Virus record (IMG/VR): IMGVR_UViG_3300042923_001829
Coordinates: 1-41,194 of that record
Length of the DNA stretch: 41,194 nt
Origin: a virus
Reading direction: 5' to 3' (one strand)
Shown: piece by piece, positions 1,186-41,194 of the stretch
Position numbering within the stretch: position 1 is the stretch's first letter
Layout: each line of letters begins with the position of its first letter
Notes under the pieces: generated by a model
Database searches by the model: none
Told to the model about the DNA's origin: nothing
Seen by the model: only the letters and a program-made list of their open reading frames with translations
Program-made: the position numbers and the translations under genes

Positions 1186-1229
1186 AAATACCCTCCTCAA
1201 TTTATATTTAAACTATACTTTATTTTCTG

Positions 1230-18103: not shown

Positions 18104-18503
18104 CTTCTAACCACCCGTCAAGGTCTTGTTCTTCCTCTTTCGGCAACACCTCGTTTAACAAGGCAAGCTGTGAGTTAAAGGCTTTAAGGTTTTCCCGCAG
18201 CTCTTTTTGTGCCGGATTGACTTTCAGCGAACCCGTAACATTCTTCACGAACGCGCCCTCGATTTCCAAGCACTCTTTTGCTGCATTTATCATACTGATA
18301 AGGTCTAAACAGTTATTTAATATAAATTCTTCCTCTTTGGTCTGTATCTTGTCTTTGTACATGTCCATAAATGCTTTAGGCGTGACCGTTTTCGTGCCGA
18401 ACTTTATCGCATGAACAACGTCGGTCAAGTCCTCGCGCTCTCCGCTCTCTACGGCGCGCGCAGCTCTGCGGTATTCTTTGTAATAGTCGTTATTGCTCGG
18501 CAT
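18096..18503 (-). CDS. terS: Terminase small subunit, P27 family
   Basis: A 135-residue DNA-recognition subunit of the P27 family. The C-terminal block GAFVKNVTGSLKVNPAQKEL near residues 83-102 is the family signature. AGGGGGTGA precedes the ATG. The start lies inside the 3' end of the Mom-like gene, overlapping it by 55 nt in another frame, so both proteins are probably made from one late transcript. Confidence 0.87.
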   Translation of the reverse strand: MPSNNDYYKEYRRAARAVESGEREDLTDVVHAIKFGTKTVTPKAFMDMYKDKIQTKEEEFILNNCLDLISMINAAKECLEIEGAFVKNVTGSLKVNPAQKELRENLKAFNSQLALLNEVLPKEEEQDLDGWLEDE

Positions 18504-19237
18504 AAGTCACCCCCTGTTTTTGCGTCTGTCCTATAGTCCGGTTTATCACACGGCACCCATACACCGCGCCCCCTCTTGATTTTCCAATTTAGGTCATTTT
18601 CTTTGGGTACTGGCTCGGTTAGAGCTGCAGCGCAAACGCCCTTATACTTCCGGTCAACCACATAGAAGTATTTGAACTGTTTCCCCTTGATGTGTTGTAT
18701 GTTAAACTGTTCCATTTCTTCAAGGGTCGGGCGTACTGTAATTCTTGGGTCGTCATGCTTTCCAAGTACGCCCTTTAACCCTCTAGGGTGCAGCTTCACG
18801 CCGTCCCGCATGTAAAACTCACTTACAATGTGACCCGCATATTTAAAATTGGCTGCTTGGTACACATAGCCGACTTTCCCAAGCATACCGTCCGCCCAGG
18901 TGAAAAGGATTTTAATGTTTGGGTGATTGACCCGCAGCCATTTTATTAATTGGCTTAACATTTGACTTTCACTATTACGCGGCATATCCTCGGTCATGCA
19001 CATGCGCCCGATTTCAAAATAATCACTTGTACCCAAATCCGGAAATAAAACTTTGATTGTATGTAGTGGTCTAGTTCCAAACCCCAGGGTCACAATTCCG
19101 ACAAGCTCACCGCCCAGATAAAACCCTATAAAATGTCTTGTGCTGCTCGGCACGGTATCGCTGTAATGGTACTGTTTAACCATGTCAACGGCGGTTTGCT
19201 TATCAATCTCACATATTTCATATTTAATCCTACCCAT
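18449..19237 (-). CDS. Mom-like DNA-modification acyltransferase (GNAT fold)
   Basis: A 262-residue protein resembling phage Mu Mom, a GNAT-superfamily enzyme that modifies adenines to methylcarbamoyl-adenine and so protects phage DNA from restriction. Matching parts from ATG 19237 are KQYHYSDTVPSSTRHFIGFY near residues 21-40, GGELVGIVTLGFGTRPL near 42-58, FEIGRMCMTEDMPRNSESQM near 74-93 and FTWADGMLGKVGYVYQAANF near 113-132. AGGGGGTG is placed correctly for this ATG; the frame to 19261 has no good site. It is the first gene of the late operon, fitting late modification of progeny DNA. Exact chemistry is inferred from the family. Confidence 0.8.
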   Translation of the reverse strand: MGRIKYEICEIDKQTAVDMVKQYHYSDTVPSSTRHFIGFYLGGELVGIVTLGFGTRPLHTIKVLFPDLGTSDYFEIGRMCMTEDMPRNSESQMLSQLIKWLRVNHPNIKILFTWADGMLGKVGYVYQAANFKYAGHIVSEFYMRDGVKLHPRGLKGVLGKHDDPRITVRPTLEEMEQFNIQHIKGKQFKYFYVVDRKYKGVCAAALTEPVPKENDLNWKIKRGRGVWVPCDKPDYRTDAKTGGDLCRAITTITKNTAELRAP

Positions 19238-19261
19238 TACAACACCCCCTTTTTTGCACAC

Positions 19262-19285
19262 AAAAAAACCGCCCTTTTAGGCGGC
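19262..19285 (-). terminator. Intrinsic terminator just upstream of the Mom-like gene
   Basis: On the minus strand CCGCC pairs with GGCGG around a short A-rich loop, followed by seven Ts (19268-19262). It lies between the late promoter and the first late gene, so it may be a leader terminator that late transcription has to pass. Confidence 0.7.
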
Positions 19286-19398
19286 TTCTTTTCTGTATGA
19301 TTAATGTGTCAACCGTGTTCATTTTCGTGCATTCTGCACGATTTTAGAACATGACCTTTTTCCAATGTGTTCCCGTTTTGTTTGGTTAACGAACATTT

Positions 19399-19427
19399 AT
19401 TTATTTGCACAAGGTTGTGCATGTCAA
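19399..19427 (-). promoter_or_regulatory. Putative late promoter with operator palindrome in the spacer
   Basis: On the minus strand TTGACA (19427-19422) is followed 17 nt later by ATAAAT (19404-19399), or TAAATA with an 18-nt spacer. The spacer is almost filled by the perfect palindrome TGCACAACCTTGTGCA (19421-19406, 7-bp arms). The consensus -35 with a weak -10 and an operator on top suggest a regulated promoter driving the late operon. Confidence 0.55.
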
Positions 19428-19527
19428 AATCCCGTTTTCTCGTATAGTTGTCGAATTTACAAATCCAACCTCATAAAAATAAATAAACCTTCGTTAAATG
19501 CTTCAAGTATATTCAAATTTTGCGCAC

Positions 19528-19551
19528 AAAAAAACCGCCTTTAAAGACGGC
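19528..19551 (-). terminator. Terminator of the Z1 gene
   Basis: On the minus strand CCGTCT pairs with AGGCGG (one G-U pair) around TTAA, followed by seven Ts (19534-19528). The mismatch on the plus strand makes it work only leftward. It is 78 nt beyond the Z1 stop codon. Confidence 0.7.
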
Positions 19552-19628
19552 TTCTTTATTATATTTAATTTATTATAGATATCTTTCTCATGTGATTATG
19601 TCTATCGTTATTATTTATATAGTTTTTT

Positions 19629-21722
19629 CTACTTCATATACTCTTCTGCATAAACTGTTGATTTAATGTTTTTTGGCATAACTAATACTGGCCACCAGAA
19701 AGGTGCGCCGCTCCATCCATCCGCACTATTCCCATTTTGTTTTATTAGAATAAGTGAAGGATCATCAATAGCAGCCCTCTTGGCGGGCACTCCATCTTGA
19801 GTTCCATTATCGGGAGCATTCATAATCCTATGTGCTCCTGGTGTTTCCTTTTTAGTATTTCTGCCTTCCCTAACTACTAAGGTAATCTTATCGCGGGTGA
19901 AGTAATCTAGAAAGGAAAGCATTGTATCCATATTTACTACATATTCGTTATCGAGTTCTATAGTTTCGTAAATAAGTTTAATAATTGTACAAGCTACATC
20001 CTTTGTAACCTCACATTCATATTGTTGCACATGATTAATATTATAGGGTGCCAAAATATCATCTATCTTCTTAATAAATGGCGTTAATTTTGTTTTACAT
20101 ATTGGTGTAAATCCTACCGGAAGAATTCTGGTGTGTTCTTTTAAAATATGTGTCTTGCTGACTAATATTTTATTAGGTGAACAAGGAATAATTTTACCAC
20201 CTTTATCCTTTCTAATAAAAATAACACCATTATTATTTCTATTAAGTTCGAAATCTCTACGTAATTCGGAATCAAATTTATTAATTTTTACCATCTGATT
20301 ATATAATTCAGTAGTAGTATAAAGTCTCGTTACAGCTAAATCCTCTTTTTTTCTATACCCAAACATTCTTGAATGTTGTAGAACGGTATCTTGCTGCATT
20401 TTTTGTGGACGTCTACCATAGCAGAACCCTATAAGATTTGAAATTGTAATTCCTCTATCAAGAATTTGTCCCCCAACAAATATATTTAAAGGAGTTCTTA
20501 ATTCTAACTGGCCTTTCTCATCTAACATATCCTTAACATCATTCTCAGAATTAACAACGGAAATGTTAATTCTTTCTTTGATAGCAATATATATCTCTGG
20601 TAAAAGTTCTTCTTTGGAGATCATGTTAAAACCATATTCCTTTATGCTTTTTTCAAGTCCTTCCATCGACTCAAATATTAATTCATTTAATTTATTTATA
20701 TCTTGCTCTATAAGTGCTGCCAATTGTTCTACTAGTGTAAATATAATGTCTGCTTGTCTCATATGAGAACTTTTTGCTATCTCTGTATGAATTATAAAAC
20801 TAAATCTATTATTTTCATCAAATTCGTCCCCACCATTTTGGAGTAAACGAATTGTTCCAGCAACAATAAAATTTATAATTGCCTTTCGTAAACCTTTAAC
20901 TTTTGAATGAGTTAAAACCTCTTCTACCTTAAAAACTCTTCTATCACTTACTTTAAGAATATCCAATTCTTTTTGCTCTATCTCCATAAACAAGTGCTTT
21001 GCCAAAGGATTTACATCATGATTAAAATAGTAATCTCCCCCAATATATCCTTCTCCATACGGAACTAATACGGTATGCGCTGGCTTAATAGGATAAATTT
21101 CTGCTCCAATTTCAAAATTTTCTGGTTGCAAATAAAGTGAGTATGGCGTAGCGGTTACTTGAATAAATCTACATTCTTCAAGACTTCCTCTAATATCGTT
21201 TATTTCACTTGCTATCTTACGGATATCAAAAAAATCTGCATTTTTAGAAAATCCCACACTTGCAAAATCAGCTTCATCGTCAATTATCATGCACTTTTTA
21301 TTTGACTTTAGCGGGTAACTTTCTATAAAGAGTTTAAATCTTGCTAAATTATTTTTTTCTTTTTTCACAATAATAATCATTTTTTGTTTTAACTCAAAAG
21401 GCGTTAAATTAGTATGTATAGACATAATATCATATATTTTGACTTTTTCACCTTTGAATTCGTAACGCATTCTTGCTAAGGTTTGCTCCGACAAAGCATT
21501 CGTTCCTTTTGTAAGTACTACTGCTAAATCATATCCATTATCAAATCCTAATGCAATTGTACCTATAAAAGTTTTAGTTTTACCACTTTGAATTTTACCA
21601 AGCATCATTAAAGGTTCATTCTTCAAATCTTCTAAAAGCGTTATGCTCTTTTCAATACACTCCTTTTGCTCTTCGGTATATTCAGAACACTTTTTTAAAT
21701 AAAAATCACCGTTCAACTCCAT
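19629..21722 (-). CDS. Z1-domain ATPase/helicase-like protein, AT-rich cargo gene
   Basis: A 697-residue P-loop protein. The helicase-like N-half has Walker A GKIQSGKT at 42-49, Walker B DDEAD at 148-152 and motif III-like TATPYS at 190-195. Residues ~410-470 carry the Z1 signature: VGGQILDRGITISNL, then CYGRRPQKMQQDTVLQHSRM followed by FGYR. Z1 proteins occur in predicted restriction and anti-phage systems, often with Hsp90/MutL-like ATPases and PD-(D/E)XK nucleases; no such partner is here. AAAGGAGA precedes the ATG. It is AT-rich, has its own promoter and terminator, and sits between HNH and the packaging genes, where other phages have none. It is most likely a defence moron, by inference. 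Confidence 0.82.
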   Translation of the reverse strand: MELNGDFYLKKCSEYTEEQKECIEKSITLLEDLKNEPLMMLGKIQSGKTKTFIGTIALGFDNGYDLAVVLTKGTNALSEQTLARMRYEFKGEKVKIYDIMSIHTNLTPFELKQKMIIIVKKEKNNLARFKLFIESYPLKSNKKCMIIDDEADFASVGFSKNADFFDIRKIASEINDIRGSLEECRFIQVTATPYSLYLQPENFEIGAEIYPIKPAHTVLVPYGEGYIGGDYYFNHDVNPLAKHLFMEIEQKELDILKVSDRRVFKVEEVLTHSKVKGLRKAIINFIVAGTIRLLQNGGDEFDENNRFSFIIHTEIAKSSHMRQADIIFTLVEQLAALIEQDINKLNELIFESMEGLEKSIKEYGFNMISKEELLPEIYIAIKERINISVVNSENDVKDMLDEKGQLELRTPLNIFVGGQILDRGITISNLIGFCYGRRPQKMQQDTVLQHSRMFGYRKKEDLAVTRLYTTTELYNQMVKINKFDSELRRDFELNRNNNGVIFIRKDKGGKIIPCSPNKILVSKTHILKEHTRILPVGFTPICKTKLTPFIKKIDDILAPYNINHVQQYECEVTKDVACTIIKLIYETIELDNEYVVNMDTMLSFLDYFTRDKITLVVREGRNTKKETPGAHRIMNAPDNGTQDGVPAKRAAIDDPSLILIKQNGNSADGWSGAPFWWPVLVMPKNIKSTVYAEEYMK

Positions 21723-31553: not shown

Positions 31554-32805
31554 TCCTTTGACCCCCTCGCTTCTCAAATAGTTTTTCTGTGTAATCTTGG
31601 CGACTCTCCAAGGTCTTTAAAATATCCTGTTCGATTGATTGCTCAACGATTAAGAAATAATAAAAACATGTCTTAGATTGCCCCATCCGGTGAATACGCT
31701 TCTTGCTCTGCTCGAATAATTCCGACGATAGCGGCAAAGTAAAATATACTAGATGGTTGGCTTTTTGGAGATTTAACCCCATTGCCCCCGCCTGGTACTG
31801 TACCAATGTGACACTATCGTTTTCACTATTGTATGCTGCAAGGTCATTCACCGCACCATTAACCACGCTCACCGGTTTATGAAGTGTTTTGCATATACTT
31901 TTTATCGCGTCTAGCTCTGACGTAAAGTTGTAAAAAATAATAACCCTGTCGTTTGTGCTCTCTAATAGCTCTGTAAGTTTGTCCAGTTTATTTTCATTGT
32001 ACTGTCCGCATAGCTGCCGCAGATATAACATATATGTTAGGGTTCTGTTTCCTACCAATTCAACCCCGTCAATAGTGATTAACTTGTCTTTCTTGAACCT
32101 GTTGTATTGCTGCGTGTTCTTTACGCTCAATAGATTTATAACTTGTTCCGGCAATGTCAAAACGTCCTCGGATTTCATAAACACCGCGCCGTATTTTGCA
32201 AGCTGCCGTTTCAAGTGGTTCACATTTTTATAACCGACGATTTTTTCCATCTTAAACCCGCCTATGTCTATCATATGGGTTTTGATGTAGTTCTCATAAA
32301 ACGCCTTTTTTGTAATCGTCCAACCCAAAAGGCGGCATTGACTATATAATTCCTCATACTTTCCACCCGTGGGCGTTCCGCTTAAAAGAACAACGTTGTC
32401 GGGTTTAAGTCTTAGGACGAACTTTCCACGTTTAGAACGCTCGTTTTTTATATAGCTGCTTTCATCAAGCATTAAGGTATAGTTTTTTAATTTTAATAGT
32501 TCGGGTCTGCGCCACGCTGTTTCATAGTTCACAATGAGCACGGAACGGGGTTCTAATGGCTTCTTTTGCGGCTTGGTATAGTCTACAATGTTATAGTCAT
32601 AGAACGTTTTAAAATGCTCTTTCCAGTCCTCTATTTTGGACTTTTGACATATTAGTAAATTATACGGTGCTGCAAGATCTTTCATCTTTTCCGACCCTAC
32701 GAACGTTTTTCCAAGTCCCATGTCTAAGTAATAGGCGACACGGTTTTTATCCTTGGTTTCTTTGATTGCCGTTACCTGGTGCGGCTGCAGCTTAACTTTT
32801 GACAT
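31546..32805 (-). CDS. SNF2-type DEAD/DEAH helicase
   Basis: A 419-residue superfamily 2 helicase. Motif I is MGLGKT near residues 29-34, motif II DESS near 113-116, motif III LSGTPT near 136-141, and the helicase C part has YQAGAMGLNLQKANHLVYFT (motif V) and RIHRMGQ (motif VI). Phage SNF2-like helicases assist replication and recombination. Its own Shine-Dalgarno is weak; the start lies 14 nt inside the small membrane protein gene, suggesting coupled translation. Confidence 0.9.
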   Translation of the reverse strand: MSKVKLQPHQVTAIKETKDKNRVAYYLDMGLGKTFVGSEKMKDLAAPYNLLICQKSKIEDWKEHFKTFYDYNIVDYTKPQKKPLEPRSVLIVNYETAWRRPELLKLKNYTLMLDESSYIKNERSKRGKFVLRLKPDNVVLLSGTPTGGKYEELYSQCRLLGWTITKKAFYENYIKTHMIDIGGFKMEKIVGYKNVNHLKRQLAKYGAVFMKSEDVLTLPEQVINLLSVKNTQQYNRFKKDKLITIDGVELVGNRTLTYMLYLRQLCGQYNENKLDKLTELLESTNDRVIIFYNFTSELDAIKSICKTLHKPVSVVNGAVNDLAAYNSENDSVTLVQYQAGAMGLNLQKANHLVYFTLPLSSELFEQSKKRIHRMGQSKTCFYYFLIVEQSIEQDILKTLESRQDYTEKLFEKRGGQRSV

Positions 32806-32941
32806 ATCCTAAGTGCTGCTTAATGTCCGCTAATCCGTCCCCAAGCTCTTTGAGTAATTTATCATACTCTTTAACCTGGTTTTTCATGATTAGCCACATG
32901 GACAACATACCGACCAAATAACCCATGATATACGGAAACAT
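32792..32941 (-). CDS. Small single-span membrane protein (49 aa)
   Basis: A 49-residue frame: MFPYIMGYLVGMLSMWLIMK forms a membrane helix, then a charged helix (KEYDKLLKELGDGLADIKQH) ending in GYVKS. The ATG shares one base with the stop of the Cro-like gene (TAATG) and GGGTGGGGTG is just upstream. Possibly a small early inner-membrane protein acting on the host; function unknown. Confidence 0.65.
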   Translation of the reverse strand: MFPYIMGYLVGMLSMWLIMKNQVKEYDKLLKELGDGLADIKQHLGYVKS

Positions 32942-33168
32942 TACACCCCACCCATTAGGAAAAATATGGTCTGTGGTTCTTCAATCTTCAAAACTCTAAT
33001 CAGTCCATTTACTTCCCTTATCGTGAAATTTCCATCTTCTAATTTGCTGCGTAATGTCTTTGCTGCAATCCCTAGATAATCGGCAACCCCCTTGATGGTT
33101 AGGTCGTTTAACTTGATGTATTTCCGTATAATACACCCGCTATTCGTTGTGATTTTACATGATGTCAT
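32941..33168 (-). CDS. Cro-like helix-turn-helix regulator
   Basis: A 75-residue DNA-binding protein with a helix-turn-helix (DLTIKGVADYLGIAAKTLRS near residues 22-41). It is the first gene of the leftward early operon, divergent from the CI-like repressor, which is the Cro position. AGGGGGTTCAC precedes the ATG. Promoter at 33224-33252. Confidence 0.78.
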   Translation of the reverse strand: MTSCKITTNSGCIIRKYIKLNDLTIKGVADYLGIAAKTLRSKLEDGNFTIREVNGLIRVLKIEEPQTIFFLMGGV

Positions 33169-33223
33169 TTTGTGAACCCCCTATCATTTTATGAAGCGGC
33201 GCCTTGTTCCTCCCCACGAGATA

Positions 33224-33252
33224 ATTGTATCCTACCGCGTCACTTTTGTAAA
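33224..33252 (-). promoter_or_regulatory. Early leftward promoter (PR-like)
   Basis: On the minus strand TTTACA (33252-33247), a 17-nt spacer and TACAAT (33229-33224) lie upstream of the Cro-like gene. The -35 box lies in TGTAAACATAAG, which resembles the TGTTTATG/CATAAACA sites upstream of the second regulator at 33.8 kb. Confidence 0.65.
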
Positions 33253-33313
33253 CATAAGTTGTTAAATTGTACCTTTACACGCTTAAAATGTTTCTTTTAA
33301 CGCAACTTTTTGT

Positions 33314-33342
33314 TTGTTTTTGCCCCTAAACTGTGCTATCAT
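33314..33342 (+). promoter_or_regulatory. Repressor maintenance promoter (PRM-like)
   Basis: TTGTTT (33314-33319), 17 nt and TATCAT (33337-33342) with an extended -10 TGC precede the CI-like gene by 37 nt. It diverges from the early promoter about 85 bp away, the expected genetic switch. Confidence 0.6.
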
Positions 33343-33378
33343 ATTTATAAAGTATAAAATTAAAAGGGGCTATTATAA

Positions 33379-33741
33379 ATGAAAGACAAATCATATGAAA
33401 TTGATCAAAAGGTCTTAAATGAAAATATAAAAACGCTAAGAAAGAAGCGTGGTTTTACACTTGAAGAGTTGGGTGACAAAATCGGTGTTAGTCGCGGAAC
33501 TATTAGACGATATGAAACGGGTGAAATTGAAAACATCAGTACCACAACCATTGTGAGCCTTGCGAACGCGCTTAAAGTAACACCCGCACAGCTCGTAGGT
33601 TGGGAACATATCGGAGATACCGGAAACAATGTTGTGGACGAAATTATTTCACGCCTGGAAAAAATGGATAATGAACAACTTCAATCTATTTTGACAATGA
33701 TTGACGCCGTATCTAAAACATGGGGGGACACGTTAAAGTGA
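33379..33741 (+). CDS. CI-like XRE repressor
   Basis: A 120-residue repressor. A typical HTH_3 domain spans residues ~15-70 (LRKKRGFTLEELGDKIGVSR, then GTIRRYETGE), with a short helical C-terminus for dimerisation. There is no peptidase S24 domain, so induction would not use RecA-driven self-cleavage. AAAAGGGG precedes the ATG, the core phage type. It faces the Cro-like gene and is the likely immunity repressor. Confidence 0.82.
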   Translation: MKDKSYEIDQKVLNENIKTLRKKRGFTLEELGDKIGVSRGTIRRYETGEIENISTTTIVSLANALKVTPAQLVGWEHIGDTGNNVVDEIISRLEKMDNEQLQSILTMIDAVSKTWGDTLK

Positions 33742-33799
33742 CCCTCTTTTTTTTATCAAATTTCTCACCACTAGAGCATAACACAAAAGTAAACTGTTT

Positions 33800-33839
33800 T
33801 GTTTATGTAATTACTGCCAAGGAAAAAACTTCATAAACA
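33800..33839. promoter_or_regulatory. Inverted TGTTTATG/CATAAACA operator-like pair
   Basis: TGTTTATG (33800-33807) and CATAAACA (33832-33839) are exact inverse copies 24 bp apart, upstream of a TATAAT at 33872-33877 and the XRE gene at 33897. Likely regulator binding sites. Confidence 0.45.
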
Positions 33840-33896
33840 GCTTACATAATCAGCTAGATACAAGCAAACACTATAATTAATAAAGGAGATAAAAAG

Positions 33897-34268
33897 ATGG
33901 AGAATTGGAAAACAGCGGGTAAAAAACTTAGAGAACTACGTAAAGAAACGGGATTATCAATCTATAAAGTGGCGCGCGCGATAGGAGTATCGGGTAACTA
34001 CATAAGCCTACTAGAACGCGGTCAGCAACAACCCTCTGACGCGGTTCTGATTAGCTTATGCGATTTTTACAAGGTTGAACGAGCAGTCTTATTCGACTTA
34101 TACAATCGGGTTGAAACAACCAAACTAGATCAAATACTTGCTGATCCATCACTTAGAAAGATATTAAACCAAATGAGCACTGATAAAAAACTTTCCAGTG
34201 AAGATTTAGCAAGCATTGAAACTGAATTACAAGTCATCAAATATAGACTTGATAATAACAAGGAGTGA
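33897..34268 (+). CDS. Second XRE-type regulator
   Basis: A 123-residue protein with HTH_3 at residues ~10-65 (LRELRKETGLSIYKVARAIG, then NYISLLERG) and a helical C-terminus. AAAGGAG precedes the ATG, unlike the G-rich sites of the phage core. It is co-transcribed with the membrane protein gene that follows (the two stop/start regions are within 6 nt). It could regulate that gene, the integration module or a second immunity. Confidence 0.82.
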   Translation: MENWKTAGKKLRELRKETGLSIYKVARAIGVSGNYISLLERGQQQPSDAVLISLCDFYKVERAVLFDLYNRVETTKLDQILADPSLRKILNQMSTDKKLSSEDLASIETELQVIKYRLDNNKE

Positions 34269-34273
34269 CATCA

Positions 34274-34717
34274 TTGATTCTAACTAACAGTATTAAAACC
34301 TATGAGCGGTTTGTAGTGCATTTATTCGGTTATAAACTTGTAATACACTTAGAGGAAGTCATCTTGCTGCTTGCAGGTCTATTTCTTGGGATGTTAGTCA
34401 TGGCTCTGCTTGCGGGAAACTTTATCTATAGACTATATAAGATCGAGGATATGGGAAAAAGTAAAATTCAGCTGTTACGAACGAATCATGACGGTAAAAC
34501 AAAATATGTTGCAGCATTTAAGAGCTTTTCGGAAACGATTGAACAAATCCTATTGCTCTCATTTAGTCCGTTTTTTACTGTCAAACGTTATACACTGCGC
34601 GACGAACAACGTACCAAACGATTTTTAATTATAATGTCAATTATTGCTGCGATTGTTATATGCTTTGCAATCATATCCGTTTCAACCGTATTTGAACCTA
34701 TTCCATTAACTCCTTAA
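34274..34717 (+). CDS. Two-span membrane protein paired with XRE regulator
   Basis: About 147 residues. Membrane helices at roughly residues 26-50 (VILLLAGLFLGMLVMALLAG) and 120-140 (FLIIMSIIAAIVICFAIISV) flank a basic cytoplasmic loop. No family recognised. I choose TTG 34274 because AAGGAG lies 8 nt upstream; the GTG at 34265 overlaps that site. As part of a repressor-side operon it may be expressed in the lysogen and act in superinfection exclusion; this is inference. Confidence 0.65.
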   Translation: MILTNSIKTYERFVVHLFGYKLVIHLEEVILLLAGLFLGMLVMALLAGNFIYRLYKIEDMGKSKIQLLRTNHDGKTKYVAAFKSFSETIEQILLLSFSPFFTVKRYTLRDEQRTKRFLIIMSIIAAIVICFAIISVSTVFEPIPLTP

Positions 34718-34721
34718 TTTC

Positions 34722-34746
34722 CCCGTTATATTAACGGGTCTTTTTT
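34722..34746 (+). terminator. Intrinsic terminator of the XRE-membrane protein operon
   Basis: CCCGTTA (34722-34728) pairs with TAACGGG (34732-34738) around TAT, followed by TCTTTTTT. It closes the rightward regulator operon and faces the end of the leftward RepA-like gene. Confidence 0.8.
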
Positions 34747-34788
34747 ATCGTGAGAAATGTTGAAAATTCCTATCCCCTCTCTTAGATT

Positions 34789-35643
34789 TTACATGAATAC
34801 AATCTGATCTATTCCTGACCATTCACTTGGTTCTGTCGATAATGGTAAGCCATTATCAAAATTAAATAAGTCCTCTACGGTTTTAACTCCATTAAGTTCA
34901 AGGCTCTTTAATTCTTTTAGTGCACTTCCCCAACTCCAACCATTACGCCCCGCCTTTGTCATTGAGTTCTCAATCAGCTCCACTTCAAATCCTCTTTTAA
35001 TCAATGCGTTAATTTCTTGTTTGACTGCTACGGTTGGTTTTTTACCAAAGTTACGATTAAAACTTTTATATAGTGTATCATCAATTATAACGACTGGAAC
35101 ACTGGCTGTTCTTAGTAAAGTAATGTTATTGTTATTTATATTATTAGTATTATTATTAGTATTTATATTATTATAGGGTGCTTTTTCTGCACCTATTTCA
35201 ATTTGATTAGGTGCTTTTTCTGCACCTTTTAAGCTATGTATAACTTTTTCTGCACCTATTGAATTATCCTCTATTTGAATTTCATTACCATGGGGATTTT
35301 GGGTTTTCTGTTTTGATTTTTTAAATCGCTCTTCAACTTCATACGGCTTAAAATAAATTTTAAAAGTGCGACCAACTGCCACGCGTTCTATTAAATTAAT
35401 TGTGCCACATGATAACTTTTCAAACGCTGTTATAACTAGACGCTTTGATACATTGCATATTTGCATTATTTCTTTTTGCTCAAATATAACAAACGCCCCC
35501 TTATCGTCGGTATATTTGGGGTTCATCTGAGAAAGATTAAATCTAAATCTCAATAATGAATAGATTATCTTTTCGCTTGCTGTCAAATCTTCTCGTGCTA
35601 ATATTTCGAATGGTATAGGTAAACTTAGGGTTTCAGTAAACAT
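34789..35643 (-). CDS. RepA_N-like replication initiator with DnaD-like C-terminus
   Basis: A 284-residue initiator-like protein. Residues ~5-105 resemble RepA_N winged-helix domains (LPIPFEILAREDLTASEKII, LLRFRFNLSQMN, FEQKEIMQICNVSKRLVITA, then FKIYFKPYE). A low-complexity N-rich linker lies around 150-180 and a DnaD-like domain at ~205-265 (GFEVELIENSMTKAGRNGWS, then LKELKSLELNGVKTVEDLF). The same architecture is known from RepA_N plasmid initiators such as pSK41 RepA. ATG 35643 has AAGGAG 10 nt upstream; GTG 35652 is too close to it. Three CTTTTTCTGCACCT repeats lie inside the gene. Gene content and AAGGAG site differ from the phage core. Confidence 0.65.
   Translation of the reverse strand: MFTETLSLPIPFEILAREDLTASEKIIYSLLRFRFNLSQMNPKYTDDKGAFVIFEQKEIMQICNVSKRLVITAFEKLSCGTINLIERVAVGRTFKIYFKPYEVEERFKKSKQKTQNPHGNEIQIEDNSIGAEKVIHSLKGAEKAPNQIEIGAEKAPYNNINTNNNTNNINNNNITLLRTASVPVVIIDDTLYKSFNRNFGKKPTVAVKQEINALIKRGFEVELIENSMTKAGRNGWSWGSALKELKSLELNGVKTVEDLFNFDNGLPLSTEPSEWSGIDQIVFM
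35115..35260. repeat. In-gene iterons and AT-rich tract: candidate origin in the RepA-like gene
   Basis: Three copies of CTTTTTCTGCACCT start at 35181, 35214 and 35244 (steps of 33 and 30 bp). The first two are extended to the palindrome GGTGC-N7-GCACC. Directly to the left (about 35115-35175) lies a nearly pure AT tract coding for the Asn-rich linker. Iterons beside an AT-rich unwinding element inside the initiator gene resemble the lambda origin in gene O and RepA_N plasmid origins. Confidence 0.6.
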
Positions 35644-35679
35644 GTGGGTCACACTCCTTAGGTCTTTATTATGTTTGTC

Positions 35680-35709
35680 TTGAATATCATGCGTCCCTCA
35701 TGCTAAAAT
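35680..35709 (+). promoter_or_regulatory. Promoter of the antisense RNA over the repA-like leader
   Basis: On plus, TTGAAT (35680-35685), an 18-nt spacer and TAAAAT (35704-35709) preceded by TGC (extended -10). It points away from the RepA-like gene start, into its leader. Confidence 0.5.
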
Positions 35710-35715
35710 GTAATT

Positions 35716-35790
35716 AAGGACGTCACGAACTTAGCGGTTGGATTGTTCTTTATACCCCAAGGGTTGCCGCCCATGGGGTATTGTTTTTAT
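35716..35790 (+). ncRNA. Predicted countertranscript RNA of the RepA-like gene (~75 nt)
   Basis: No reading frame of note occurs here, but a plus-strand promoter (35680-35709) is followed by an intrinsic terminator whose stem is ATACCCCA (35752-35759) and TGGGGTAT (35774-35781), with an inner GGG/CCC, then TGTTTTT. The resulting RNA would be fully complementary to the leader of the leftward xis-repA mRNA. Antisense RNAs control Rep synthesis in RepA_N plasmids such as pSK41, so a copy-control role is a reasonable inference. Confidence 0.5.
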
Positions 35791-35834
35791 AATTAAATAT
35801 TTGTACTCTATTTAACATTCTCAAATCATTTATG

Positions 35835-36026
35835 CTATTTCTTGGCTTTTGTTTTTTTTTCTAACCAACTTTCAAAGTCCAGTCTTTTAACTCTCCAAGA
35901 TGTACCTATCCGAAAAGATGGAAAACTTTTGTCTACTTCTCCCGCAAACAGTGCATAGGTCTGACCTTGTGATGTTTGTAAAATATTTTTTACTTGTTTT
36001 ACCGTGAAACACTCTAAATTCGTCAT
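35835..36026 (-). CDS. xis: Excisionase-type HTH_17 protein
   Basis: A 63-residue winged-helix protein of the excisionase/MerR-like class (MTNLECFTVKQVKNILQTSQ, then SWRVKRLDFESWLEKK). Such proteins bend DNA to steer the integrase toward excision. It is the first gene after the leftward promoter at 36160-36188 and is followed by the antisense-controlled RepA-like gene, so excision and replication may be switched on together. Confidence 0.8.
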   Translation of the reverse strand: MTNLECFTVKQVKNILQTSQGQTYALFAGEVDKSFPSFRIGTSWRVKRLDFESWLEKKTKAKK

Positions 36027-36126
36027 TCTGTCATTATCCCCCTTATTGTCTTGTTTAAAATGTTCATATTTAAGCTTGATTGTATATATTCAACCACCAG
36101 ATGTCATTATAACCATATCTCGAATA

Positions 36127-36224
36127 TTGACAACCTACAGTTTGCAAATATTAATTCATATATTACACTATACACTTTCAGTTGTCAATTATGCTTGTAA
36201 AATATTATTTTGACAACTGACAGT
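36127..36224. promoter_or_regulatory. Three TTGACAACTGA operator copies between xis and XRE genes
   Basis: TTGACAACCTACAG at 36127-36140 (plus), TTGACAACTGAAAG at 36188-36175 (minus) and TTGACAACTGACAG at 36210-36223 (plus). The second and third copies supply the -35 boxes of two divergent promoters. The XRE protein encoded next to them is the likely binder, repressing both its own gene and xis-repA. Confidence 0.65.
36160..36188 (-). promoter_or_regulatory. Consensus promoter of the xis-repA operon
   Basis: On minus, TTGACA (36188-36183), a 17-nt spacer and TAATAT (36165-36160). The -35 box is inside an operator copy, so repression should be by direct occlusion. Confidence 0.75.
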
Positions 36225-36239
36225 ATGCTATGATAGTAT
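36210..36239 (+). promoter_or_regulatory. Promoter of the XRE-integrase operon
   Basis: On plus, TTGACA (36210-36215), an 18-nt spacer and TAGTAT (36234-36239); an alternative -10 TATGAT with TGC in front lies a few bases upstream. The -35 box is an operator copy. Confidence 0.65.
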
Positions 36240-36266
36240 GTTTTCAAAGGAGGTGATTAAAAATAT

Positions 36267-36692
36267 ATGAAAATGATTAAAAAGTATAGAGAGCAAAAAA
36301 AAATAAGTCAGAGAGAGCTAGGAAGACGTATTGGACTAAGTGGTCAATACATTGCCAAGTTAGAAAAGGACGAAAATGCTAATCCTACAAAAGAAACACT
36401 TCAAAAAATAGCCGACGAATTAGACGTTTCTGTCAGTGAATTGTTTGAAGAAGAAAAATTTGCCGAGGATATACAAAAATCAGTGATATATGATTTTCTA
36501 AAGTCGATAGGCTATGTTGTAACAGATTGTACGACTGACGAAACAAATCCTATAATACAAATATCAAAAGAGACTTCCAAGAAAAAGACAAATCTGTCCT
36601 CTACATTTAAGGGGAATGATATTCTAAATTTAGAAAATGACATTTTAAGTTACATTGAATATCTAGTTTACAGACACTCGAGAAGGGACTAA
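36267..36692 (+). CDS. XRE repressor of the integration module
   Basis: A 141-residue protein with HTH_3 at residues ~5-60 (REQKKISQRELGRRIGLSGQ, then YIAKLEKDE) and a ~75-residue C-terminal part of unknown fold. AAAGGAGGTGA precedes the ATG. The gene is 7 nt from the integrase gene and divergent from xis. It probably keeps excision and RepA expression off in the integrated state. Confidence 0.82.
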   Translation: MKMIKKYREQKKISQRELGRRIGLSGQYIAKLEKDENANPTKETLQKIADELDVSVSELFEEEKFAEDIQKSVIYDFLKSIGYVVTDCTTDETNPIIQISKETSKKKTNLSSTFKGNDILNLENDILSYIEYLVYRHSRRD

Positions 36693-36699
36693 TAAGAGA

Positions 36700-37836
36700 A
36701 TGGCTACAATATACAAGAAGAAAAGGAAAAACAAAGACGGGACAGAATCTATTTCATGGTATGGAGAGGTAACAATAAATTATAAGAAAAAATCGTTTTC
36801 GGCTAAAACCAAAAAAGAGGTTGCCGAAAAAATAAGAGCCTATGAAACTGATATGAATATCTATGGTAATACGTTAGAAACTACCCCAATATCATTAACA
36901 GAATGGACAGAAAAATATATGTTTTCAAGTGTTCTTCCCTTGGTTTCTTCTAGCACTTTTGACCGATACAAAGGGATTTTTGACAATTATATAATCGGTT
37001 CAGAACTAGGCAACATGTACATTAAAAATATTCGTCAAATCCATGTGCAAGATTATTTTAATGCACTTACTGCGTTATCAACTGGAAGTATGAATAAAAT
37101 AAAATTTTTACTTAACGGCTCTTTTAAAAGCGCTATTAAAAACAATCTAATACGCATAAACCCTTTGGATGGGTTCAAACTCCCATCAAGCCAAAAAGAT
37201 GAAAAAACAATTGAAGTCTTTACACTTGATGAACAAAAAGAGTATATATTAGCACTTGGAACTGAAAAATATGGATTTCTATTTTATCTGACACTATATA
37301 CTGGCATGCGTCTTGGTGAGGTGATCGGCTTAAAATGGGACTATGTGAATTTTGAAAATGGTGTTATAGTAATTATTGAAACACTTAAACGAAGTAAAGT
37401 ATACAACGCCAAGGGAGAATATGAGGTTAAGAATGTAACAAAATCTCCAAAGAGCAACAAGGGCAAACGAGAAATACCCGTTCCAAGTTTTTTACTGTCT
37501 AAACTTAAAGAACTTGAAGAAGCTGCAACAAGTGAGTATGTTTTTGCAACTTCAAACGGTACTCCATTAAGTGCTACTAATATAAGAAAGTACCATTTAA
37601 GGGCATGCAAAAAAGCTAACGTCAAGACGATTTCGTTCCATGCCCTTAGACATACATATGCAACACGCTTACTAGAAGCGGGGGAACATATTAAGACAGT
37701 TCAAGAACTATTAGGACATGCAGACATTAGCACAACACTAAATATCTATACCCATGTTCTTCACGAAACAAAAAAGAGCGCTGCTGATAAGCTTAATGCG
37801 CTTCATAATACCATGTTTAAAGATGAAAAAAACTAA
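36700..37836 (+). CDS. int: Tyrosine recombinase integrase
   Basis: A 378-residue phage/ICE-type integrase. It has an N-terminal arm-binding domain (residues ~1-55), a core-binding SAM-like domain (~65-155) and the catalytic domain. Catalytic residues: R204 (TGMRLGE), K256 in the beta-hairpin, H314 and R317 (HALRH), H340 (LLGH) and nucleophile Y350 (NIYTH). It recombines attP with the 3' end of tRNA-Thr, part of which lies 82 bp downstream. No obvious Shine-Dalgarno beyond a weak AAGGG/GAGAA; it is likely coupled to the XRE gene. Confidence 0.95.
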   Translation: MATIYKKKRKNKDGTESISWYGEVTINYKKKSFSAKTKKEVAEKIRAYETDMNIYGNTLETTPISLTEWTEKYMFSSVLPLVSSSTFDRYKGIFDNYIIGSELGNMYIKNIRQIHVQDYFNALTALSTGSMNKIKFLLNGSFKSAIKNNLIRINPLDGFKLPSSQKDEKTIEVFTLDEQKEYILALGTEKYGFLFYLTLYTGMRLGEVIGLKWDYVNFENGVIVIIETLKRSKVYNAKGEYEVKNVTKSPKSNKGKREIPVPSFLLSKLKELEEAATSEYVFATSNGTPLSATNIRKYHLRACKKANVKTISFHALRHTYATRLLEAGEHIKTVQELLGHADISTTLNIYTHVLHETKKSAADKLNALHNTMFKDEKN

Positions 37837-37918
37837 CTACCGTCCATTTACCGTCATTTTTTTTAATAACTTCTTGTATTCATTGATATTCAAAGCCTTA
37901 TTCTCTACCGACTCTTGT

Positions 37919-37961
37919 CTTGGTAAGGCGGAGGTCGGCGGTTCAAGTCCGCTCGGGAGCT
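37919..37961 (+). other. Attachment site: 3' half of tRNA-Thr(GGT)
   Basis: The stretch forms the 3' half of a tRNA: anticodon loop TTGGTAA (anticodon GGT at 37922-37924), stem GGCGG, variable loop, T-arm GGCGG-TTCAAGT-CCGCT and acceptor CGGGAGC plus T. The sequence to the left does not give a 5' half (no GCTCCCG, D-arm or CCGCC strand). So this is the displaced end left by integration, and the intact tRNA-Thr should lie at the other end of the prophage, left of the window. Confidence 0.85.
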
Positions 37962-37990
37962 TGCTTGAAAACATTGTATTATAAAAGAAA

Positions 37991-38020
37991 AAGGGCACTT
38001 TTAGGTGCCCTTTTTCTTTT
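37991..38020. terminator. Bidirectional terminator after the tRNA fragment
   Basis: AAGGGCAC (37991-37998) pairs with GTGCCCTT (38005-38012) around a 6-nt loop, followed by TTTTTCTTTT; the A-rich left side gives a T run on the other strand. It is probably the original terminator of the tRNA-Thr transcript and also serves the leftward gene at 38051. Confidence 0.85.
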
Positions 38021-38050
38021 ATAACCGTTTAATAGTTAGTAGTATTTTTA

Positions 38051-38278
38051 CTATTCATAAAACATTGAAGCAAATGTGCTGATCGGTATAAGTCTAGCAT
38101 CTCTTTCTTCCAACATAGCCATAGGGAAACTTTCCCTTTCATGGTTTTTTACAAATTCTAGCGTAAAACTAAAATCATCAAAAGATAGTACTCTGCCTAT
38201 TCTCCAAGTTTCAACAGTTTCCATTTCCACAGGGTCAAATTTATGACATCTAATTTGCACCTCATCACCTATTTTCAT
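38051..38278 (-). CDS. Small hypothetical protein, host flank
   Basis: A 75-residue protein with mainly beta character (MKIGDEVQIRCHKFDPVEME, RIGRVLSFDDFSFTLEFV). It may be an SH3-like or PilZ-like small barrel; no family is certain. GGAG lies 9 nt upstream of the ATG. It ends next to the tRNA terminator and is outside the prophage. Confidence 0.6.
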   Translation of the reverse strand: MKIGDEVQIRCHKFDPVEMETVETWRIGRVLSFDDFSFTLEFVKNHERESFPMAMLEERDARLIPISTFASMFYE

Positions 38279-38556
38279 GGGATCACGCTCCTTTGTGATA
38301 TTATACCACTAACCATTAACCAATATTCAGTTGATAAGATTTTCCATTTGTTTAGCTTAAAATAGGATTTGAGAGATTCTTCGTATAAGCTATAGGTCTG
38401 TTTGCTAAACATTTCTAATATATAAGATGTCTATGCGAAAAGTGATGTGCATTTCATGTCCATGATTACTCCAATTTTTATAGGATCAATACATACAATA
38501 CTTATAGGCTGGATATCTTAACTAAGTAAAATTCATGCGACAATTAGAGGTGCCCT
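38279..38556. other. Intergenic region in host flank
   Basis: I see no gene or clear RNA element in this AT-rich gap; it should contain the divergent promoters of the two neighbouring genes but none is convincing. Confidence 0.4.
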
Positions 38557-39057
38557 ATGCGAACTACTTGTAAATCGAAATTATTAATATTAGTTATTTT
38601 ACTCATGCCTATTATTTTTTCATATCTTCCTCTAAAAGCTATCTCAGATGTTCCTGTAAGTGACACTGAGCATAAGAGAATTATGACACAATTTATCTCT
38701 GAGCTAAAAAGTATTCAAAACAGGATCCTCGGAGCATCTCAGCTCGCTCTAGACGAACCACCTGAGAACATCAGCCTAACTAGAGATATTAATTTAATTA
38801 ATAACGATATTTCTAAACTTCGTCAGCGCGTAATAGAGTATAATTCCGATATTCCATCTACTGACTTAAGGAATAAAGATGCTTTATTTCTCCGAAATGC
38901 TATTAATGACAGCCAAATTTCCTTATATCAATTAAGTGAAATATCTCAAACAACTACTAATCTTGAGAAGATTTTGCTTCTCGAGGATTTTTTTGAATAC
39001 AAAAAGTCTGGTGAACAAACGCTTGTGAATTTAGAAAATATGATTACACGATACTAA
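38557..39057 (+). CDS. Secreted or membrane-anchored hypothetical protein
   Basis: A 166-residue protein with an N-terminal signal peptide or anchor (KSKLLILVILLMPIIFSYLP, residues ~6-25, with a possible cleavage after LKA) and a helical remainder (HKRIMTQFISELKSIQNRIL, LEKILLLEDFFEYKKSGEQT). No family recognised. GAGGTG is 4 nt before the ATG. A terminator follows at 39079. Confidence 0.65.
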   Translation: MRTTCKSKLLILVILLMPIIFSYLPLKAISDVPVSDTEHKRIMTQFISELKSIQNRILGASQLALDEPPENISLTRDINLINNDISKLRQRVIEYNSDIPSTDLRNKDALFLRNAINDSQISLYQLSEISQTTTNLEKILLLEDFFEYKKSGEQTLVNLENMITRY

Positions 39058-39078
39058 TTAACTATATTTATTTATAGA

Positions 39079-39113
39079 GCCTGATTATTTAATTTTCAGG
39101 CCTTTTGCGTTTT
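39079..39113 (+). terminator. Intrinsic terminator
   Basis: GCCTGA (39079-39084) pairs with TCAGGC (39096-39101), followed by CTTTTGCGTTTTT. It closes the secreted protein gene. Confidence 0.7.
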
Positions 39114-39320
39114 TACTTATAAAAAGGCAATTCTATTCTTTTATTGAAGTAATTACCTAAATCTTATATAATGAGCTCAAAAGTGAGGATGATTATATTT
39201 AAAAAACAATAAAGTTTTTATGATTAAAGCTCATATGACTCACTCTTTTTCATAGGGGACATATATTAGTAATAAATACACCTGTCTATTGTGATACTGG
39301 ATTTAAAAGGGAGGATTTAT

Positions 39321-39722
39321 ATGTTTGATTTTAAATTTGATTGGGATAAATCAGTTGAAATAGGTGTTCCTGAAATTGATTCTCAGCACCAAGAACTTTT
39401 TAGGATTGGAAGAGAAGTTAATTATATGCTTCTCATTAATTTTAATAACATTACTGAGGATCAGTTATTAACTATTGTTGGTGAACTTAGGAATTACATT
39501 ACGTACCATTTTTATTATGAAGAAGCTTTTATGAATGAAATTAATTATCCTAACTTTTTAGCTCATAAAAATAGTCATCAAAACTTTAAAAATAAAGTTA
39601 ATGCACTTGATTGTGATAACCTTAGAAGTTCATTTAAAATTTTAAAAGAATTACTTGTAACTTGGGTCTTTGAACATGTTCTTGTAGAAGACTACAATCT
39701 CAAAGCTTTTATAAATACTTAA
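39321..39722 (+). CDS. Bacteriohemerythrin
   Basis: A 133-residue single-domain hemerythrin that binds O2 at a non-haem di-iron centre. All seven ligands are present: H23 (SQHQELF), H63 and E67 (HFYYEE), H82 and H86 (HKNSH), H119 (FEHV) and D124 (VEDY). Such proteins sense, store or scavenge oxygen in anaerobes and microaerophiles. ATG 39321 (MFDFKFDWDKS) has GGGAGGA upstream; the frame to 39291 is not supported. Confidence 0.94.
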   Translation: MFDFKFDWDKSVEIGVPEIDSQHQELFRIGREVNYMLLINFNNITEDQLLTIVGELRNYITYHFYYEEAFMNEINYPNFLAHKNSHQNFKNKVNALDCDNLRSSFKILKELLVTWVFEHVLVEDYNLKAFINT

Positions 39723-39771
39723 ATATTACCTTAAACACCTTATTTACCCTCAAGTATATCCTTCTTATTGA

Positions 39772-39799
39772 TTTCAGGTTTTATTATTAAAACCTGAAA
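39772..39799. terminator. Long hairpin between convergent genes
   Basis: TTTCAGGTTTTA (39772-39783) and TAAAACCTGAAA (39788-39799) form a perfect 12-bp stem with a 4-nt loop. It lies between the convergent hemerythrin and HTH membrane protein genes and probably terminates one or both, although the following T runs are poor. Confidence 0.55.
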
Positions 39800-39801
39800 G
39801 A

Positions 39802-40179
39802 TTATAATATCCATCTCTCTATTGTATTATATTCTCTACGATTGCCTGCAATCTCTTTTAACCATTCATCTATCTGGTCCTTATAAAAATACTGTTCATT
39901 ATCTACTGTAAAATATGGAAACATTATACCCGAAAAACTTCCTGTCTCATTTAGTTTAATTCTTTCTGTTTCAATAATTCCTTTAACTTTTTCTTCGGGC
40001 ATATTTAAGTACTCAGCGACCTGCGTCAAATTTAGAACTTTATTATTTCCAAATGAATATGTATTTGATTTTTGTATATTTGCAGCGCTAATAGCTCTTC
40101 CAATAAAATAGCCATTAAAAATAATGGATACTCCTATAAATAAAATAATACTTGCCATCGCAAAATTCTTTTTGAACAT
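39802..40179 (-). CDS. Membrane-anchored protein with excisionase-like HTH domain
   Basis: A 125-residue protein. One membrane helix (residues ~9-29, ASIILFIGVSIIFNGYFIGR) is followed by an HTH_17-like domain (VLNLTQVAEYLNMPEEKVKG, then QYFYKDQIDEWLKEI). AAAGGAGGAA precedes the ATG. The combination of a membrane anchor with a DNA-binding-type fold occurs in several Bacillota; function unknown. Confidence 0.65.
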   Translation of the reverse strand: MFKKNFAMASIILFIGVSIIFNGYFIGRAISAANIQKSNTYSFGNNKVLNLTQVAEYLNMPEEKVKGIIETERIKLNETGSFSGIMFPYFTVDNEQYFYKDQIDEWLKEIAGNRREYNTIERWIL

Positions 40180-40437
40180 CTTATTTCCTCCTTTTTAGTA
40201 AATACTCTTTAATTATAAACTATTTTTCAAATTATTCTACCTGTTTCATTTAATCAAAAACCTCTCTCCATAACATCCAGTCTTTTACTGTTTACAATAT
40301 CTCCTATTGGTTTTATAATTTAAGTACATAGATTATTTTAAAAACCATTCATATGAAACTTAAAATTATAAAGAAGTGTTGTCTATATTAGGACACTTGT
40401 CTTAATATTTAAAATGATTCACTTACTTGATTTATTT

Positions 40438-40465
40438 AAGGGGCTAAACAAGGCCTCTTTTTTAT
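40438..40465 (+). terminator. Orphan plus-strand intrinsic terminator
   Basis: AGGGGC pairs with GCCTCT (one G-U) around an 8-nt loop, followed by TTTTTAT. No coding frame precedes it on this strand within 700 bp. Confidence 0.5.
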
Positions 40466-40492
40466 ATGGCTTTATCTTATATTCTATTGTAC

Positions 40493-40534
40493 AAAAAAAA
40501 TAACAGACACTCTTTCTCAGGGTCTGTTATTTTT
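40493..40534. terminator. Bidirectional intrinsic terminator of the ERF gene
   Basis: A perfect 10-bp stem (40499-40508 and 40522-40531) with T runs on both sides; on the minus strand it closes the ERF gene. Confidence 0.75.
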
Positions 40535-40579
40535 ATATAAACTTATTATAATATCTTCTATCTGGCTTTTGGCATTAGA

Positions 40580-41194
40580 TTATGCACCTACTGGCACATC
40601 AGGTTTTTGTTCCAGCCAACCGATTAGCTTATCGTATTGTTCTTTATTAAGATCATTAAGACTCTCTAGCTTACATAATGTTTTAAGTCCATTTGCATCA
40701 AATCCTTTGCGCATACCAATCGCATAGAGTCTTGAAAGCTGTTTTTGAGTAACTTTGTAACCACTGTTTTTTACAGTATTTGTTTTATCTAGTCCACTTG
40801 CCATGTTGCCGTCATCATCCTCATCAGTCGTAACAATTCCTAAAGCACACTGCAATGAGTATCGCCTTAAATACGTTACTGTTGCCATAGATTGCTGCAC
40901 ATTGCCGCTAATCTTGATTTGCAAGGGTTCAAATTCTATAAATTCTCCTGTTTCATGCAAAAGCATTGTAGAGACACTAATGACGTCCCCATTCATGGTT
41001 CCATTGGTATTCTGCAAAAAAGATAAACCATGTTTTGCAAGTATAGGTCTTATAGATCCAACAATATCTTCAAGCGTTGTATACGTTGATTTGAAAAAAG
41101 GATTAGCTGATGTTCTTTTAAGAGTCTCTGCTTCACTCTGAAATTTAACAATTGCTTCTGCAATATTTTTAATACTCTCTGATTTATTAACCAT
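40580..41194 (-). CDS. ERF-family single-strand annealing protein
   Basis: A 204-residue ERF recombinase. The family core is present: ANPFFKSTYTTLEDIVGSIR near residues 31-50, LAKHGLSFLQNTNG near 53-66, and the MATVTYLRRYSLQCALGIVT motif near 108-127 followed by DEDDDGN. The C-terminus (residues ~145-195) is a separate helical module. ERF proteins anneal single strands in phage recombination. The ATG coincides with the last bases of the window, so an upstream site is not visible. As a typical phage gene outside the attachment site, it suggests a second element to the right. Confidence 0.88.
   Translation of the reverse strand: MVNKSESIKNIAEAIVKFQSEAETLKRTSANPFFKSTYTTLEDIVGSIRPILAKHGLSFLQNTNGTMNGDVISVSTMLLHETGEFIEFEPLQIKISGNVQQSMATVTYLRRYSLQCALGIVTTDEDDDGNMASGLDKTNTVKNSGYKVTQKQLSRLYAIGMRKGFDANGLKTLCKLESLNDLNKEQYDKLIGWLEQKPDVPVGA

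Follow-up and report, generated by a model that had tools for sequence, protein, structure and literature searches.

From sequence, the int–xre/xis–rep block of a temperate phage integrated in a Clostridia chromosome is best explained as holding a predicted self-contained, theta-type RepA_N plasmid replicon. This candidate replicon, controlled by an antisense RNA, probably serves to maintain the phage when it has been excised or has not yet integrated. The window, which is the whole stretch of DNA analysed (41,194 nucleotides), corresponds to positions 1-41,194 of IMG/VR record IMGVR_UViG_3300042923_001829, and its block contains the following genes, together with the right-hand attachment core:

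34789-35643, minus strand: rep, RepA_N and DnaD/DnaB_2-like replication initiator, 284 aa from ATG, with Pfam, PHROG and PDB matches
35835-36026, minus strand: xis-like HTH_17 excisionase gene upstream of rep, 63 aa, PF12728 at 6.4e-7
36267-36692, plus strand: XRE/HTH_3 repressor-like gene, PF01381 at 1.8e-16
36700-37836, plus strand: int, tyrosine integrase, PF00589 at 2.7e-33 and PHROG 1 at 3.1e-74
37919-37962, plus strand: attR core, 44 nt, 43 of them identical to the tRNA-Thr(GGT) 3' end at attL (G001:C23:284628-284671)

Positions 32500-41194 are identical to a stretch of the 486-kb contig JARBUI010000002.1, which is chromosomal and comes from a Clostridia metagenome-assembled genome (MAG). 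Comparison of att cores between the window and the MAG gave a prophage of ~38.3 kb integrated in a tRNA-Thr gene, with attL formed by the 3' end of tRNA-Thr(GGT) ~430 bp to the left of the window. A core search of the whole window returned no second copy and the partner core lies beyond the structural genes; therefore, a single integrase delimits the full 38 kb, and these bounds make the tail genes through rep, xis, xre and int a single element. Genes for the terminase, capsid, tape measure, primase and polymerase all fall between the att sites, so that the element has the structural and lytic genes of its own that define it as neither a PICI nor a satellite. In the MAG and the virus record, the prophage is present solely in integrated form, attL to attR. 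No relaxase, type IV secretion or partition gene was found among the subset of ORFs scanned. Positions 38000-41194 are flank past attR, where a gene for an ERF-type annealing protein (PF04404) at 40580-41194 may belong to another element. At the opposite end, adjoining attL, a 399-aa protein (window 1-1200) has a sub-threshold match to GmrSD_N, a type IV restriction domain (1.8e-5).

Profile searches with the Rep protein returned RepA_N (PF06970) with E=3.5e-8 and 33.7 bits, above the gathering score of 30, and DnaB_2 (PF07261), which marks a DnaD-like C-terminal domain, with E=1.1e-5 and 25.5 bits against a cut-off of 22. TIGR01446 also matched, under its cut-off. The best full-length phage family is PHROG 186, annotated as a DnaD-like helicase loader (1.4e-14), and the RepA_N chains 4pt7, 5kbj and 4pql in the PDB match at E 2-4e-4. 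A single-sequence AlphaFold2 model of Rep reached a pLDDT of 32 and was left out of the fold search. Close homologues of Rep were found in none of IMG/VR, INPHARED and PLSDB, which gave weak RepA_N similarity only, and the best matches in sets of 295 and 391 related genomes have 23-36% identity. Those inspected are mostly of ICE or plasmid type, in which rep accompanies a DnaC-like ATPase, parA/parB and Mob genes; none of the inspected matches from related genomes was a prophage with the arrangement seen here. Rep is preceded by a ribosome-binding site, AAGGAG, at 35659-35654, and its two domains are separated by a linker whose coding sequence holds a candidate origin:

about 35589-35413, minus strand: RepA_N domain of Rep (PF06970)
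35177-35197, 35210-35230 and 35240-35260, no strand assigned: three in-gene iterons of the type GGTGC-TTTTTCT-GCACC, found by repeat search
35116-35175, no strand assigned: AT-rich tract, candidate unwinding element, 91.7% AT and the top AT 60-mer of the window
about 35067-34867, minus strand: DnaD-like domain of Rep (PF07261)

The iterons, spaced by 33 and 30 bp, are semi-palindromic, with the left palindrome half lacking from the third copy. Across the whole window, their pattern is confined to rep (3 matches against 0.24 expected), and the four codons that the copies share are the same in each of the three, with p of about 6e-4 once the amino acids and codon usage are allowed for. A search of IMG/VR with the same pattern gave 13 single matches, none in a rep-like gene. 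No perfect DnaA box was found near the origin; there are one-mismatch sites only, and shuffles contain more of these than the window does. RepA_N boxes are described as semi-palindromic, their inverted repeats meeting at an A tract (PMC5703833, PMC7145576), and pSK41 rep carries four of them centrally (PMC5703833). At the level of sequence, the iterons and T tract in the middle of rep fit this published anatomy, with the third copy imperfect.

The leader of rep is faced on the opposite strand by a predicted short RNA:

35680-35709, plus strand: antisense RNA promoter, TTGAAT-18-TAAAAT with an extended -10 (TG), from a promoter motif scan
35716-35787, plus strand: predicted antisense RNA of ~72 nt, two stem-loops, facing the rep leader, from folding and the promoter/terminator pair
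35752-35781, plus strand: antisense RNA terminator hairpin, ATACCCCA...TGGGGTAT followed by TGTTTTTAT, from repeat search, folding and pair scan

Both strands of the whole window were scanned for promoters followed at 40-110 nt by a hairpin with a T tail. The antisense pair is by far the strongest in the 41 kb, at -19.0 kcal/mol with the next at -13.1, and 30 shuffled strands gave one lone pair that reached -13. There is no plus-strand gene between 34717 and 35783 for this terminator to serve, nor does a gene further upstream need it, because the gene at 34265-34717 has its own. The RNA is predicted to fold at -26.1 kcal/mol (z -2.67). Rfam gave nothing over gathering scores, and the hairpin pattern of the RNA had 0 matches in IMG/VR; with no close homologue of the rep/antisense region found, covariation cannot test it. 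The promoter and terminator that the original prediction assigned to a countertranscript of the leader are both where it put them, as are the in-gene iterons and the AT tract, and its RepA_N/DnaD-like initiator is borne out by two Pfam matches above curated cut-offs.

The rep leader was folded twice, once with the antisense target free and once with it blocked. Three minus-strand segments change partners between the two states:

35716-35728, minus strand: segment X (pre-emptor), which pairs with Y when free and lies under the antisense RNA 5' end
35687-35704, minus strand: segment Y, partner of X in the free leader and of Z in the leader with a blocked antisense target
35639-35654, minus strand: segment Z, which contains the rep ATG (35643-35641), from folding

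Segment X, 13 nt long, is the first part of the antisense target and an arm of the pre-emptor helix, and coincides exactly with the leader stretch that lies under the antisense RNA 5' end. Blocking the target is predicted to yield a Y-Z helix of 14 bp and -13.8 kcal/mol that buries the rep ATG, and the computed probability that the AUG is unpaired falls from 0.334, a start codon just one-third open in the free state, to 0.001. The predicted effect is statistically moderate. Shuffled spacers equalled the occlusion in 0 of 600 cases and the switch in 21 of 600, and shuffled targets left the AUG equally open in 28 of 400. This switch is new, being absent from the earlier reading of the sequence. 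As modelled, it reproduces the pre-emptor logic of pSK41 and pSA564, which has been described for pT181, pSK41 and pSA564 (PMC5703833, PMC8129170). Together with the promoter/terminator pair, it supports the prediction of an antisense RNA of the rep leader.

Transcription of the block appears to be governed from the region between the divergent genes, where XRE and int point away from xis. A Tn916-Xis profile matched the xis product at 0.027, below its cut-off. The candidate control sites are:

36127-36141 (plus), 36174-36188 (minus) and 36210-36224 (plus): three operator-like sites resembling TTGACAACTGACAGT, over the divergent xis/rep and xre/int promoters
35796-35824, minus strand: candidate own rep promoter, TTGAGA-17-AATATT, a weak consensus match (9/12)

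From this arrangement we infer that XRE controls both divergent promoters and that rep is co-transcribed with xis under XRE control. Rep may also be expressed from its own weak promoter at 35824-35796, with a transcript starting at about 35790.

A working scheme can be proposed for the antisense-controlled RepA_N replicon. As long as the prophage is integrated, Rep would be held off jointly by XRE repression and the antisense RNA, since a chromosomal origin that fires would be deleterious. Relief of XRE repression would lead to joint expression of xis and rep and would thereby couple excision to replication. Rep would bind the iterons and open the AT tract, its DnaD-like domain would recruit the host helicase and primase, and the antisense RNA, with an output proportional to gene dose, would cap Rep and so limit copy number. 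The circular phage would in this manner be protected from loss after excision, or between infection and integration, and its upkeep would proceed without the phage primase/polymerase module.

Several characterized systems resemble the putative replicon in part. Like Rep, the initiators of the Staphylococcus plasmids pSK41, pSK1 and pSA564 combine a RepA_N N-domain with a DnaD-like C-domain and semi-palindromic boxes in mid-rep, and opposite the leader these plasmids encode an antisense RNA of ~70-90 nt with two hairpins that, on binding, is predicted to mask the start of translation (PMC5703833, PMC8129170). The window matches them in silico in having a short, terminator-ended, two-hairpin RNA opposite the rep leader and a leader helix that hides the start codon upon antisense binding. 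It differs in that no terminator forms in the folded 'off' leader and in that the replicon lies behind xis in an integrated temperate phage. Such RNA control is apparently absent from RepA_N plasmids of other genera according to a review (PMC5703833/PMC8129170). As an analogy, SGI1 is the nearest functional model: an integrated element in which S004-repA and an iteron-containing oriV lie beside xis, it replicates transiently after excision at 4-8 copies, and its Rep is apparently toxic together with a chromosomal origin (PMC7826253). Unlike the window, SGI1 is a non-phage element controlled by a conjugative helper, with an IncN2/N3-type RepA and no antisense RNA mentioned (PMC7826253). RepA_N initiators in chromosomally integrated elements are also reported for ICEs of the TnGBS, Tn5252 and Tn1549 families and for PLE satellites, and in the TnGBS ICEs RepA_N maintains the element before integration; antisense control was not noticed in the available parts of these sources (PMC4701971 for TnGBS; PMC4701971 and PMC7145576 for the group). 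The ICEs and satellites lack the replisome and virion genes of a phage. Phage-plasmids likewise join phage structural genes to a plasmid replicon, but typical ones are extrachromosomal, whereas the window phage has int and xis and sits in tRNA-Thr. PICIs share the divergent repressor-int/xis-rep-ori block; the prophage here differs in encoding a capsid, tail, terminase, primase and polymerase of its own.

The chief rival, unlikely though deserving serious weight, is that Rep is a lytic origin initiator or helicase loader moved beside xis, which fires the first theta rounds before the phage primase/polymerase takes over, while the antisense RNA merely stops leaky expression in the lysogen. Ordinary phage lytic origins also use DnaD-like loaders, and an in-gene origin in a DnaD-like loader gene is common among Firmicutes phages, which counts for this rival, as do the best full-length match of Rep, to PHROG 186, and the lack of another obvious initiator in the lytic module. 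Against it, rep is placed in the xis unit, away from the primase, and its predicted antisense control is of plasmid type. Further evidence came from related phages. A helicase query found 80 IMG/VR loci, the majority of which share the primase, polymerase, SSB and exonuclease of the window, and 41 of their records were scanned. RepA_N genes and DnaD domains over cut-off were each found in 0 of the 41, most of which share the lytic module, which indicates that this module runs without RepA_N. HTH_36 scored over cut-off in L036 and L037 only.

These two, and four further phages found via xre2 (L119-L122), have the xre1-xre2-tm module of the window and its gene order, int-xis-rep-tm-xre2. All six records contain a terminase, and in all six xre2-tm phages found in IMG/VR the xis-side slot is taken by an HTH_36 initiator-like gene. 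In those inspected (L036, L119 and L120), this gene is preceded by iteron arrays and a long AT tract, with perfect DnaA boxes beside them, and in L036, L037 and L119 a 70-aa RHH gene lies upstream of it:

33897-34717, plus strand: xre2 and membrane-protein (tm) pair of the window, which marks phages with this slot
L119:7165-8430 (minus), L036:1771-3067 (plus) and L120:6841-7990 (minus): slot origin and HTH_36 initiator in relatives

The phrog_864 primase is absent from L119-L122, which have another lytic module and still keep a replicon in the slot; the slot is thus independent of the lytic module, contrary to what the lytic-origin rival would suggest. The original prediction that the replicon stands apart from the lytic replisome gains support from these comparisons, the slot relatives carrying a different plasmid-style replicon. 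Apart from the six related phages, the xre2-tm search returned nothing but L134 and distant tm homologues, and so no further RepA_N case. L134:479-1358 (G014) is a copy of the xre2-tm pair without phage genes, and a distant XRE-membrane pair at L135:6741-7550 lies next to an endolysin-like gene, within another phage-like region that the same host carries. The accessory genes located between xis and the replicon differ (L037:1761-2648, DUF2971; L119:8540-9493; L122:8716-10518); the comparison suggests that this interval is a cargo site in the related phages. In plasmid pPR9, Rep bears an N-terminal HTH_36 domain akin to a phage protein (PMC5703833), and the RepA_N/HTH_36 exchange in the slot parallels this known plasmid swap.

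It is improbable that the replicon is a decaying relic, acquired but replicating nothing. Its lack of close homologues and its being the sole RepA_N among the phages that share the slot would agree with decay; against this, the rep ORF is intact with a good ribosome-binding site, the iteron codons are identical, and the promoter/terminator pair and leader switch are intact. Least probable of all is that a satellite or plasmid, now the rep-xis-xre-int block, inserted beside an unrelated prophage, as might be read from the block's int-repressor/xis-rep order, which is like that of PICIs and integrative elements, and from xre1 at 33379, which could serve as the phage's own repressor: this was rejected on the lone att core of the window, with its partner past the structural genes, and on the conserved order in related terminase-bearing phages.

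Returning to the antisense-controlled RepA_N replicon, the slot comparison shows that whole replicons are exchangeable at one site. A broader reading, somewhat short of an even chance, is that a group of integrating temperate phages keeps a dedicated, interchangeable plasmid replicon in the excision operon and thereby has, besides lysogeny and lysis, a third state as a low-copy episome; the variants of the replicon would be RepA_N with an antisense RNA here and, elsewhere, HTH_36 together with an RHH regulator and an origin of DnaA boxes and iterons. If so, antisense RNA control of RepA_N would reach beyond staphylococcal plasmids, the phage would survive excision or delayed integration without lysis, and the boundary between integrated prophages and phage-plasmids would blur, since an integrating phage could also persist as a regulated plasmid. 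Were the excised form real, counts of prophages in integrated form only would overlook a state with effects on gene dose and transfer.

Elsewhere in the prophage, at 18449-21722, a gene for a Mom-like DNA-modification protein (phrog_1384, 8.7e-40) adjoins one for a Z1-domain protein of 697 aa with a match to PADLOC Helicase_II (7e-60); the two may form a modification/defence pair within the phage.
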